Source of the DNA: Amphibalanus amphitrite
Lineage: Eukaryota > Arthropoda > Thecostraca > Balanomorpha > Balanidae
Assembly: GCF_019059575.1 (NCBI RefSeq)
Contig: NW_024881506.1
Coordinates: 186,001 to 250,000, forward strand
Length of the DNA: 64,000 bases
Reading direction: 5' to 3'
Below the pieces are notes generated by a model, which had not been told where the DNA came from, searched no databases, and saw nothing but the letters and a program-made list of their open reading frames with translations. Both the position numbers and the translations under genes were made by a program. Below, one piece after another: positions 3,456-63,863 of this stretch; the stretch's first letter is position 1, and each line of letters starts with the position of its first letter.

Positions 3456-6400
3456 TCGAACGGGCGAGGTACGCCGCTGCATCAACTTTGGCTCGTACAA
3501 CTACCTGGGCTTCGCCGAGAACTCTGGCCCGTGCACGGATACGGCTGAACGACTGCTGAGGCGGGACGGCGTGGCGCCCTGCAGCTCTCGGATGCACCTC
3601 GGTGAGTAGTGCTGGGGCCGCCGCCCCGCCGATAGGGGTGGTACCGAGACGCTACAGGCGGGACGGCGTGGCGCCCTGCAGCTCTCGGATGCACCTCGGT
3701 GAGTAGTGCTGGGGCCGCCGCCCCGCCGGTGGAGGTGGTACCGAGACGCTACAGGCGGGACGGCGTGGCGCCCTGCAGCTCTCGGATGCACCTCGGTGAG
3801 TAGTGCTGGGGCCGCCGCCCCGCCGATAGGGGTGGTACCGAGACGCTACAGGCGGGACGGCGTGGGGCCCTGCAGCTCTCGAATGCACCTCGGTGAGTGG
3901 GCCCGCCCACCGCCCCGCCCGCCGCCTGTCCGGCCGGTGGGGGTGGTACCGAGACGCTACTGGAGGGGTGGGCTAGCGATAGAGTCACGGTGGCGGGGTA
4001 GGGCTATCGGGTGGCTGTTAGACTGTGTGCTGTGTCATGGACGGAAGAGAAGGCTGGGCGATGGACTGAAAGAAAATTAACTAGTCCTATCGGTATGGAC
4101 TAGTTTTGGGCCGAGGATGAGTGTTTGAAGTTGTTTTGGCGGGCTTTGATTTTTGTGGTCGGTGTGTCGTGTAAGTCCTTGGTGTTTTGAACGGAGGCGT
4201 ATAGTGATTGTTTTGAAGTCTGGTAGCACTGTCTGTTGTCACTGAAATGCACCTTCCTGTGGGGTAATTATTGTTTAATTGCCGGTTGATGAATACCTAC
4301 CCAAACAGTTTTTCCTACCGTACATGCACTACGGTATCAACACCGAGGGTATTTAACCGAGGTATTTAACCACATTATAGGTAATCACGTTACCCATAAT
4401 GCTTGTAAATTGTGGTAAAGCTCACTGGTATGTGGCTGAACGTTTGCTCCGGTCCTAGCCCGAATGCAGGCGACGGCCATCCCGTGCTACTGGTGCATCA
4501 ATGCTGCAAGTGAAGCGGCTTTTGTGGTTTTCCCGTCACTAGGCAATTTATTTGGTCGTTGAGACTTTGTCGTATCTGACTCTCCCACCATTGACGTAAA
4601 GCTAACCTTGGTGAAGCATTAGGGTGTCGGTCTATCACTTGACATTGGCTGGGACACTTGAAAACGACGCCGGCAGTGATAGTTGTTTCTAGTCTGGTCA
4701 TAGTCCACTTGCGGCACTACCGTTGGTCGGTATTGTCTGAAGTTGCGTATTGAGTATTGACGTAGTGATAATTATCGGTCCTCTGAGCACTGCAATGAGT
4801 TCCTGTCTCCTGACGTATGAAGAAGACTAAAAGAACCGCAGTGAAATGTTTCTCAGGTATTTCGGAGTTGACCTCTTCTGTTCGACAGTCCGACGCTGCG
4901 CTGACGTCTTCGGACATGGTGACCCACTCTAGCTGCTGCTGTCAGCAGCTCGATCCGCGGCTGTTTCGCCGTCCCCTCGCCGGCTCTGTGCTACTGCTGC
5001 CGTCCCTCGGATCTGACCTCGGCTGCCCCTCCCCGTCCCTCCAGGCAGCCAGCAGTGTCAGGACGACCTGGAGGCACTGGTGGCCGAGTACCTCGGGGTC
5101 GAGGACGCCGTCACATTCTCCATGGGGTTCGCCACGAACGCGCTCAACATCCCGACGCTGGTGGGTCGCGGCTCGCTTGTCATCAGCGACCAGCTGAACC
5201 ACGCCTCGCTGATCCTGGGACTGCGGCTCTCCGGCGCCACCATCGACGTCTTCAAACACAACGGTCAGTGGGCAACACAACGGTCAGTGGGCGACTCAAA
5301 CACGACTCAAACACAAGGGTCAGTGGGCGACTCAAACACGACTCAAGCACAACGGTCAGTGGGGGACCGGACGGCTGTGACGGGCCCAGCCACCCTGGTG
5401 GGACCCCGCCTGGTGCGCGTTGGGCCTTCTTTGTTTGCTGATCGCTTACACTAAGCCATACGTGCCAAACAATGTGCATAGCTGTCTGTGTTTGTAACTT
5501 GTAAAAAATCCGTTGATTCGCTCTATCTGAGCTCTGACAATGATATGTATATCTGCATCCGAACCACGTGCGCCGTTCGTCCCAAGGTCGCTGTCGTGAG
5601 TCACGGATTAGCATGCCACTGCCTTAAGCGACTCGCCAGTCCAGTACAGACTGGTTCCTACCGTGCAGTCAGCGATCCGCTGAGGATTACAGTGGGAGGA
5701 GAGCTGGGGGTGGCGGCCAGCACGTGGTCAAAGAGGCTGGGGGAGGGTGATGTGCTAGTAAGGAGGGGGGGGGGGCTATTTTACCTCTAGAAGACCCCGC
5801 GAGGTAATAAAGAATATTGGGTTGTGTGAGTGGGATGAAGCAAGGTAACAATGTGAAGTGACTGGACGAAATCATTATCCGCTGTCCGCACTGTGTTTAT
5901 AAGCAATGTACCTGCTGTGGTAAGAAATCCAATGAGATCCATGATCCAATGAGATCTTAGAAATCCAATGCCCCAAAGCTTGAAGAACAATCGATATAAA
6001 ATACGTTCTGTTTATTTCACGGGATGCCAACAAAGGCGCGAAAACACTCCCACCTTAGCTGCGTCCCGGGACCTTGCCGGTGTCAATGTCATCGATGGCT
6101 CGGATATTTCCCGCCGCGTGCGTGCGTGCCGTGCTATATCGGCAGTATTGGGGCTCTGATGGGGACGGGGCGCGGCGCTGAACCCCTGAGACGTGCGTAA
6201 TAGTAAAATCTACCAATTCCTCAGGGCGGGAAGCGCGTCTTTATCGCGCGATGTTGCATCGTCGTCTGTGTAACCTCTGCGATATACGCGACCTTCACAT
6301 TTGACCCCATATTTTGGCCCGTGTGTATTGCGTAACCTTTGGTTGCTTTGACCTACATGACCAGCTATGCACTGCAGCCGATGTTTTTTGTACCTTCGGT

Positions 6401-63347: not shown

Positions 63348-63863
63348 CTGGCAACGGGCAGATAGACTGTCATACGTATACCCCACCACCAGACCGGCGC
63401 CCATCTGGCAACGGGCAGATAGACTGTCATAGGTATACCCCACCAACAGACCGCCGCCCATCTGGCAACGGGCAGATAGACTGTCATAGGTATACCCCAC
63501 CACCAGACCGGCGCCCATCTGGCAACGGGCAGATAGACTGTCATAGGTATACCCCACCAACAGACCGCCGCCCATCTGGCAACGGGCAGATAGACTGTCA
63601 TAGGTATACCCCACCACCAGACCGGCGCTCATCTGGCAACGGACAGATAGACTGTCATAGGTATACCCCACCGCCATACCGGCGCCTATCTGGTAACGGG
63701 CAGATAGACTGTCATAGGTATACTCCGCCACCAGACCGGCGCCCATCTGGCAACGGGCAGATAGACTGTCATAGGTATACCCCACCGCCATACCGGCGCC
63801 TATCTGGTAACGGGCAGATAGACTGTCATAGGTATACTCCGCCACCAGACCGGCGCCCATCTG
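63330..63863 (-). repeat. 57-bp array of the exon 63347 acceptor junction (ten copies)
   Basis: On the minus strand each unit reads TATACCTATGACAGTCTATC, TGCCCGTTGCCAG/ATGGGC, GCCGGTCTGGTGG. Exon-like starts lie at 63347 (real), 63404, 63461, 63518, 63575, 63632, 63689, 63746, 63803 and 63860. The unit is 19 codons long and the frame stays open through the whole array, so it might instead be a coding 19-residue repeat ([19 protein letters not shown]). The acceptor-like TGCCCGTTGCCAG in each unit favours the junction-array reading. Confidence 0.92.

Follow-up and report, generated by a model that had tools for sequence, protein, structure and literature searches.

Genes and junction arrays in the window

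A 64-kb stretch of the genome of the barnacle Amphibalanus amphitrite, in the following referred to as the window, contains exon-intron junctions that are copied in tandem into the adjoining introns. It corresponds to C9:186001-250000, where C9, C1 and similar names are contig labels within one assembly (807.6 Mb in 2,644 contigs). In the window, 49 exon-intron junctions (25 acceptors and 24 donors) were placed by hand in five genes, namely SPTLC2 (13 junctions), VPS39 (4), SAV1 (20), a GH20/ankyrin gene (11) and a nested gene (one donor). The GH20/ankyrin gene was described as hexosaminidase-like in an earlier note made from the bare sequence. Its GH20 domain 2 lies over the Pfam cut-off and its catalytic domain just under it, and its RefSeq protein also has an ankyrin match.

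The exon-joined SPTLC2 model has as its best protein match the RefSeq entry 'serine palmitoyltransferase 2-like isoform X2 [Amphibalanus amphitrite]' at 100% identity, and the model (392 aa) is an exact substring of RefSeq protein P0001. Likewise, the GH20/ankyrin model, which covers 621 aa and was built from the window and the following 8 kb, is an exact substring of RefSeq protein P0241, and the join preceding its first exon also agrees with that protein. As both models lie inside RefSeq proteins, the annotated splice site is the exon-adjacent array copy in both genes; splice-site choice is taken here from RefSeq protein annotation, not from an RNA assay. When the SAV1 model is aligned to its Pollicipes orthologue, five of the six array-bearing joins align ungapped within five residues. 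At the remaining join, 34072, a gap begins three residues downstream, in a low-complexity stretch.

Junction copies were identified by two tests. The strict test counts a junction as spanned when an ungapped direct repeat (lag 8-300) extends at least 5 bp to either side of it. In the gapped test, which examined the intron side only, a 40-bp junction probe was compared with 350 bp of intron and with 100 Markov shuffles, and p ≤ 0.01 was taken as a hit. In the window, 11 of the 49 junctions are spanned in the strict test and 16 give gapped hits (nominal expectation 0.5). The 16 comprise all 13 junctions that had been named as tandemly copied in the earlier note, each of which has an intron-side self-copy, and in addition 35643, 37663 and 44107. 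Tandem Repeats Finder (TRF) detects most of the arrays at the places named previously. A further 66 junctions were placed by hand in 300 kb taken from the same genome, which gives 115 junctions in total with the window. Across these, tandem repeats spanning the exon-intron border were found at 21 junctions by the strict and at 30 by the gapped test. Fixed intron points 500 bp away served as controls and gave three gapped hits in 43 (one in 43 at z > 5), so that the nominal p is somewhat liberal; the difference between junctions (30/115) and these points (3/43) has a Fisher p of 0.008. Control points 45 bp within exons were spanned in one of 115 cases in the strict test. The copying of junctions is a real feature of this DNA.

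In SPTLC2 (all plus strand), four junctions are affected. At the donor 3601/3602, the array at 3559..3967 has a 97-bp unit made of 43 bp of exon and 54 bp of intron, with 3.5 copies by TRF and four GTGAGT donors (z 18.7). The donor 5263/5264 (5252..5367) carries a 19-bp and then a 36-bp unit, with the border present three to four times (z 11.0), and the acceptor 7838/7839 (7644..7879) a 67-bp unit in three copies by TRF (z 22.6). A weak case is the donor 8000/8001, where the first intron bases are repeated in degenerate form over 8001..8112 (GTGAGTCGGC...; z 5.4) and the junction is unspanned in the strict test. Elsewhere in the assembly, a second SPTLC2-like copy with 59% identity is found at C789:59428-60546 and C241:413419-414537. 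It has one open frame over residues 2-380 and is apparently intronless.

VPS39 has one similarly weak case at the acceptor 13995 (13980..14034, minus strand), where a short exon-start element is copied upstream in degenerate form (z 5.4, unspanned in the strict test). Directly upstream of VPS39 lies an 827-aa open reading frame (ORF; 16676-19159) that, as judged by eye, resembles a reverse transcriptase of the non-long-terminal-repeat type.

In SAV1 (plus strand), the donor 27269/27270 (27226..27535) shows five copies of a unit of about 63 bp that includes 44 bp of exon, with G tracts between them (z 15.5), and the donor 34072/34073 (34065..34670) about 28 copies of a 20-bp unit that includes 8 bp of exon. 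By the gapped test, the latter (z 5.2; its 20-bp unit is shorter than the 40-bp probe) is among the weakest of the 13 junctions, together with those at 8000 and 13995. The acceptor 35468/35469 (35161..35499) has 56- and 124-bp units in about five copies (z 18.2). At the donor 36171/36172 (36147..36512), a 37-bp unit with 22 bp of exon is present about nine times (z 20.3), and at the acceptor 37061/37062 (36972..37090) a 61-bp unit occurs twice (z 14.8). Two SAV1 junctions are new relative to the earlier note: the donor 35643/35644 (35639..35728) with about three diverged copies of a 30-bp unit (z 9.5, unspanned in the strict test), and the last acceptor at 37663..37664, which has weak gapped similarity to the upstream intron (z 5.3). 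A SAV1 intron also harbours a retroelement-like insert (28589-32791) whose two ends are identical 152-bp direct repeats and which contains a 1110-aa minus-strand ORF, and a diverged 25-bp repeat (37904-38397) begins about 54 bp past the SAV1 stop codon.

In the GH20/ankyrin gene (minus strand), the acceptor 42098 (42061..42216) is present in two copies at a spacing of 112 bp (z 10.2). The donor 63227/63228 (62639..63251) has about 20 copies of a 29-bp unit (z 20.1), and the acceptor 63347 (63326..63871) about 9-10 copies of a 57-bp unit (z 20.0), with two more in the 8 kb after the window (L029:367-488). The acceptor 44107..44108 is a new and the weakest gapped hit (z 4.3). In the introns of this gene, a single long coding exon with a cysteine-rich C-terminal part is nested on the plus strand (52477-54514), and a 16-kb intron contains two mutually inverted 153-bp satellite arrays (56392-58059 and 58243-59140).

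Structure of the arrays and splice sites within the copies

The 21 strict arrays are built from minisatellite-size units of varying length, with lags of 19-124 bp and up to 28 extra copies. The ranges given previously, 21-97 bp and 2 to about 25 copies, were thus about right and slightly too narrow. The copies were also said always to lie on the intron side, which is the case in all 21 strict arrays pooled (the gapped test considered no other side). The exon part of the unit is smaller than one unit in 21 of 21 arrays (0.13-0.83, mean 0.45), the remainder being intron. Donors and acceptors are both affected, as had been noted, and to a similar degree (gapped hits at 17/56 donors and 13/59 acceptors, p 0.40). 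The position of the junction within the unit shows no clustering and is indistinguishable from uniform (Kolmogorov-Smirnov p 0.11, n=21). Since the unit is the gene's own border, the description of introns that grow here by copying their own borders is borne out.

The presence of coding sequence in the unit might suggest that the arrays were formerly exonic repeats, cut off by a new splice site. Unit length modulo 3, on which this origin was rejected, is 0 in 5, 1 in 10 and 2 in 6 of the 21 strict arrays, so that 5/21 units are multiples of 3. Moreover, every unit includes intron sequence, and no repeats of this kind are present at the joins in the SAV1 orthologue of Pollicipes. Intronisation of coding repeats is therefore scarcely credible.

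Array density in non-coding DNA climbs with guanine-plus-cytosine (GC) content, from 0.32/kb at 30-40% to 1.01/kb at 60-70%. The exon ends at array-bearing junctions have a higher GC content (median 0.717 vs 0.65, p 3e-4), and the introns at these junctions are longer (721 vs 457 bp, p 0.006). Of these two differences, that in exon GC alone stays significant within C9. The copies within the 19 junction arrays resemble one another slightly more than those within the 111 other arrays (median identity 0.949 vs 0.923, p 0.01), which points to birth or turnover rather than longer retention.

The earlier note regarded the arrays as stores of spare splice sites, and selection might indeed retain them as such or as splicing regulators. 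With a junction-centred probe, 98 extra copies were found, of which 96 keep GT/AG and 83 score in the range of true sites, though this probe favours such copies (one of the 21 arrays gave no copy). When the splice-site core was masked during detection, the core was 0.89 identical, compared with 0.91-0.94 for exon-derived and 0.70-0.80 for intron-derived sequence. Two further measures were confined to extra copies, in the 10 arrays that have three or more of them. Variable columns amount to 10/68 in the core, 38/278 in the exon-derived and 68/229 in the intron-derived part, so that by this count the core is at least as variable as the exon-derived part. The pairwise difference is 0.035 in the core, 0.128 in the exon-derived and 0.146 in the intron-derived part; the two longest arrays, with 18 and 24 copies, contribute most to this figure. 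An initial core conservation of 97.5-99% was set aside, as the probe was centred on the core and both the masked version and the column counts were unsupportive, though the pairwise differences pointed that way. Since the column and pairwise measures disagree on the core, there is no clear evidence of maintained spare sites. In addition, the junction arrays do not appear older than others. Most copies keep GT/AG, but their role as spare splice sites is not shown, and retention by selection is considered improbable.

Tandem arrays are error-prone in assemblies, and false expansion or wrongly placed exon borders could mimic the observed pattern. A second A. amphitrite record (a 477,039-bp contig) bears on this question. 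Its SPTLC2 model, P0004, has 23 extra residues that correspond to one 69-bp acceptor unit read as exon, i.e. an array copy. The acceptor units in the window are 67 bp long and differ in sequence from the 69-bp (23-codon) version. The SPTLC2 acceptor array thus exists in the other assembly too, in a different version, which argues against an artefact. Furthermore, the copies within most arrays differ from one another, no N bases occur in the first 210 kb fetched, and the borders agree with the RefSeq proteins and mostly with Pollicipes SAV1. An assembly or annotation artefact is accordingly rated very improbable.

The near-identical exons of SAV1, SPTLC2 and the array-bearing gene on C1 described below lie on one contig each in the assembly (C9 only for SAV1 and SPTLC2). 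Many PF00271 exon matches, in contrast to this, are paired with identical scores on two contigs (e.g. C37/C204 and C242/C572), so that the 807-Mb assembly probably contains both haplotypes for many loci. A 30-bp AGGTAAGT array is found at C8:417473-417750 and at C391:261404-261711, with spans that differ by 30 bp, i.e. one unit. C8 and C391 have equal-scoring PF00271 matches and are probably allelic.

Excess of border arrays and distribution in the genome

The core of the 300-kb sample consists of 21 ten-kb loci with coordinates fixed in advance, one of which (L019) is window sequence. To these were added neighbours of loci rich in genes on C10, C4 and C11, a 2-kb piece flanking L006, two 10-kb pieces flanking L022 and L008, respectively, and the 8 kb that follow the window (L029). 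Coding segments in the sampled loci were identified by a codon score trained on the window, and predicted segments were excluded if they lacked a clear gene or splice site (L001, L002, L004, L011, L021, L025, L026 and parts of others). The additions were not all blind: L029 adjoins the window, and the choice of L031 followed the discovery of an array in L008. The neighbours on C10, C4 and C11 were picked for gene density after a first TRF list had no array at exons of L020, L014 and L021, so that this set may lean toward fewer arrays.

Junction copying occurs outside the window, and very unevenly. In L029, which was fetched without prior knowledge of its content, 8 of 15 junctions give gapped and 6 of 15 strict hits, which brings the window and L029 together to 24 gapped hits among 64 junctions in 72 kb. 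A tRNA-methyltransferase-like gene on C1 has gapped hits at 5 of 11 junctions (L008 1/2, L031 4/9). Among the remaining sampled genes, one of 40 junctions gives a gapped hit, and when the window, L029 and L031 are left out, 2 of 42 junctions are hit. The arrays, described previously as recurrent, are so in some genes (those of the window, L029 and the C1 gene) but not in the other genes sampled. A further repeat of about 1.5 kb with a 29-bp unit (L028:857-2000 and L006:1-370) ends 10 bp short of an acceptor and does not span it.

The number of strict border arrays was compared with chance expectations. Uniform placement of the founding units (50 introns, 100 junctions) predicts 3.74 arrays, compared with 21 observed, and a GC-matched expectation from all sampled non-coding DNA predicts 4.74, an excess of about 4-fold. 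With GC matching within introns, 17 arrays are observed vs 1.75 expected on C9 (about 10-fold) and 4 vs 0.66 in the C1 gene, or 21 vs 4.50 for the two pooled; in the other sampled genes there are none vs 1.07 expected. The C9 figure is partly ascertained, as the window was picked because arrays had been seen in it. Conversely, some intron-interior arrays probably represent worn junction arrays, such as one that lies 20 bp from a junction of the GH20 gene, and the GC-matched test is conservative to that extent. The excess concerns the number of arrays with a border-straddling unit, not the coverage by repeats. Coverage, i.e. the base pairs of repeat at junctions relative to intron, was dropped as proof, since enrichment was absent.

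At the genome scale, pairs of GGTGAGT exceed those of the reversed motif both at 20-50 bp spacing (4385 vs 2553, 1.7-fold) and at 51-81 bp spacing (4063 vs 1954, 2.1-fold); single-motif density in the sample is similar (103 vs 88 per Mb). These are counts of pairs rather than loci, in which one long array counts many times and the junction status of the pairs is not known. Tandem AGGTAAGT pairs do not exceed their control genome-wide (85 vs 161). Screening the TRF arrays of the first 21 loci for donor motifs was abandoned, as most arrays lacked such motifs and the approach had little power. The motif evidence is mixed and enrichment across the genome is not established. The claim that borders are hit more often than ordinary minisatellites would allow stands for the counts of arrays in the pooled sample, but not for coverage or for the genome as a whole.

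An excess of this kind, over uniform placement as well as over GC-matched DNA in the pooled set, on C9 and in the C1 gene, would be expected from a mutational process specific to junctions, such as transcription- or splicing-coupled breakage, R-loops, or pausing or chromatin edges at borders. A targeted mechanism of this type, linked to R-loops or the donor sequence, had been proposed as an alternative before, and it received no positive support. Donors and acceptors are equally affected, the position of the junction in the unit is uniform-like, and the arrays are almost absent from the other sampled genes in both tests. A junction-specific process is thus regarded as unlikely.

Origin of the arrays and relation to known systems

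The interpretation to which the evidence leans is that the arrays are barnacle counterparts of the 'mirages' known from amphioxus: ordinary small tandem duplications that straddle exon borders and later expand, and that are visible because border copies would leave the mRNA intact. An array would be founded by a small tandem duplication of tens of bp, in which the duplicated segment straddles an exon border by chance, and the resulting minisatellite would expand by unequal exchange or slippage. Under exon definition, the spliceosome would choose the copy nearest the exon, since that copy delimits the shortest exon. With the mRNA unchanged, the border duplication would be nearly neutral, and duplications inside exons would be purged. 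This is consistent with the observations that the unit is the gene's own border, that strict copies are on the intron side only, and that the exon part is below one unit.

Tolerance combined with purging from exons, the simple explanation offered in the earlier note, accounts for the side of the copies and the limit of one unit within the exon (21/21), but not for the number of arrays. From tolerance alone, border arrays should be no denser than arrays in the interiors of introns, yet after GC matching they exceed this level 4- to 10-fold. Tolerance would lead to such numbers only if tandem duplications arose more readily in coding DNA than in non-coding DNA of matched GC, a property hidden inside exons because such events would be purged there. 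The excess may thus arise mainly from the GC-rich coding sequence being prone to duplication, which would become visible only if the duplicated segment has one of its ends in an intron. In the related barnacle B. improvisus, coding diversity is about 5% (PMC8270832), which makes a large supply of new alleles plausible for this group, the figure being that of B. improvisus and not of A. amphitrite.

Several points weigh against the origin from ordinary duplications. Base-pair coverage shows no enrichment, with 18.5% of intron positions in some repeat vs 11/49 = 22% of junctions. Where the excess is present it is large, as on C9, and the proneness of coding DNA to duplication is presumed. The heterogeneity is strong (29/75 junctions on C9 and in the C1 gene vs 1/40 elsewhere, Fisher p 1e-5) and does not evidently follow from GC alone. 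Finally, the evidence on splicing consists of annotated RefSeq proteins rather than an assay, and model P0004 of the other assembly uses an inner acceptor copy.

Amphioxus mirages affect both borders with units of 10-160 bp, leave splicing undisturbed, differ in length between haplotypes and were proposed as a route to new introns (PMC3087553). They are known from Adh3, the globins BflGb6 and BflGb9, TnC and PGBD5 (PMC3902484, PMC3087553), of which PGBD5 was added in PMC3902484, where Adh and TnC are cited. The barnacle repeats share with them the spanning of borders, the involvement of 5' and 3' sites, the minisatellite-size units and copies that often keep AG/GT. In contrast to amphioxus, the barnacle belongs to a different phylum, the affected junctions are concentrated (16/49 in one 64-kb window, 24/64 in 72 kb) and a GC-matched test is available. 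For splicing, the barnacle counterpart is the match of exon-proximal sites to RefSeq proteins, which is annotation only and is departed from by P0004; for haplotype lengths, it is the one array with a 69- vs 67-bp unit across two assemblies. The barnacle arrays belong with amphioxus mirages and are unusual in their density.

Other systems are more distant. Recently duplicated human genes contain variable internal tandem repeats of about 30 bp, which can create novel introns at exon-intron boundaries (PMC2812944). Those genes are primate-specific and lie in segmental duplications, with half of the repeats in coding exons, whereas the barnacle genes are conserved and have at most one unit inside the exon. 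The Rogers model and the potato RdRp gene (PMC4974935; review PMC3443670) resemble the barnacle case in that a tandem duplication occurs near a splice signal and the peptide can stay unchanged. In the Rogers model, however, an exonic AGGT segment makes a new intron, whereas in the barnacle the duplicated segment crosses the edge of an intron already present, which merely becomes longer. In potato RdRp, an intron-exon structure was copied and a new intron made, and none is shown in the barnacle. No report of boundary minisatellites in barnacles or other arthropods is among the matches listed, with the subscription literature mostly outside this coverage.

A bolder proposal is that borders are true tandem-duplication hot spots in certain genes, affecting up to half of the junctions of a gene, as in L029 with 8/15, well beyond the effects of GC and tolerance, that introns lengthen chiefly by iterated splice-site copying, and that this process had an independent origin in cephalochordates and may hold generally for highly polymorphic marine animals. 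This is put forward as speculative and rather doubtful.

In the literature covered, border minisatellites have so far been scattered cases from lancelets and human duplicated genes. Gene models in genomes of this type may wrongly take array copies as exon, as appears to be the case for the other A. amphitrite SPTLC2 model. Where a third to half of a gene's junctions are affected, the events are numerous enough for measurements of rate, breakpoints and splicing choice, and they allow exon definition to be tested with natural tandem donors and acceptors and intron growth to be watched. Border copying in the barnacle illustrates how introns can grow without a change in the protein.

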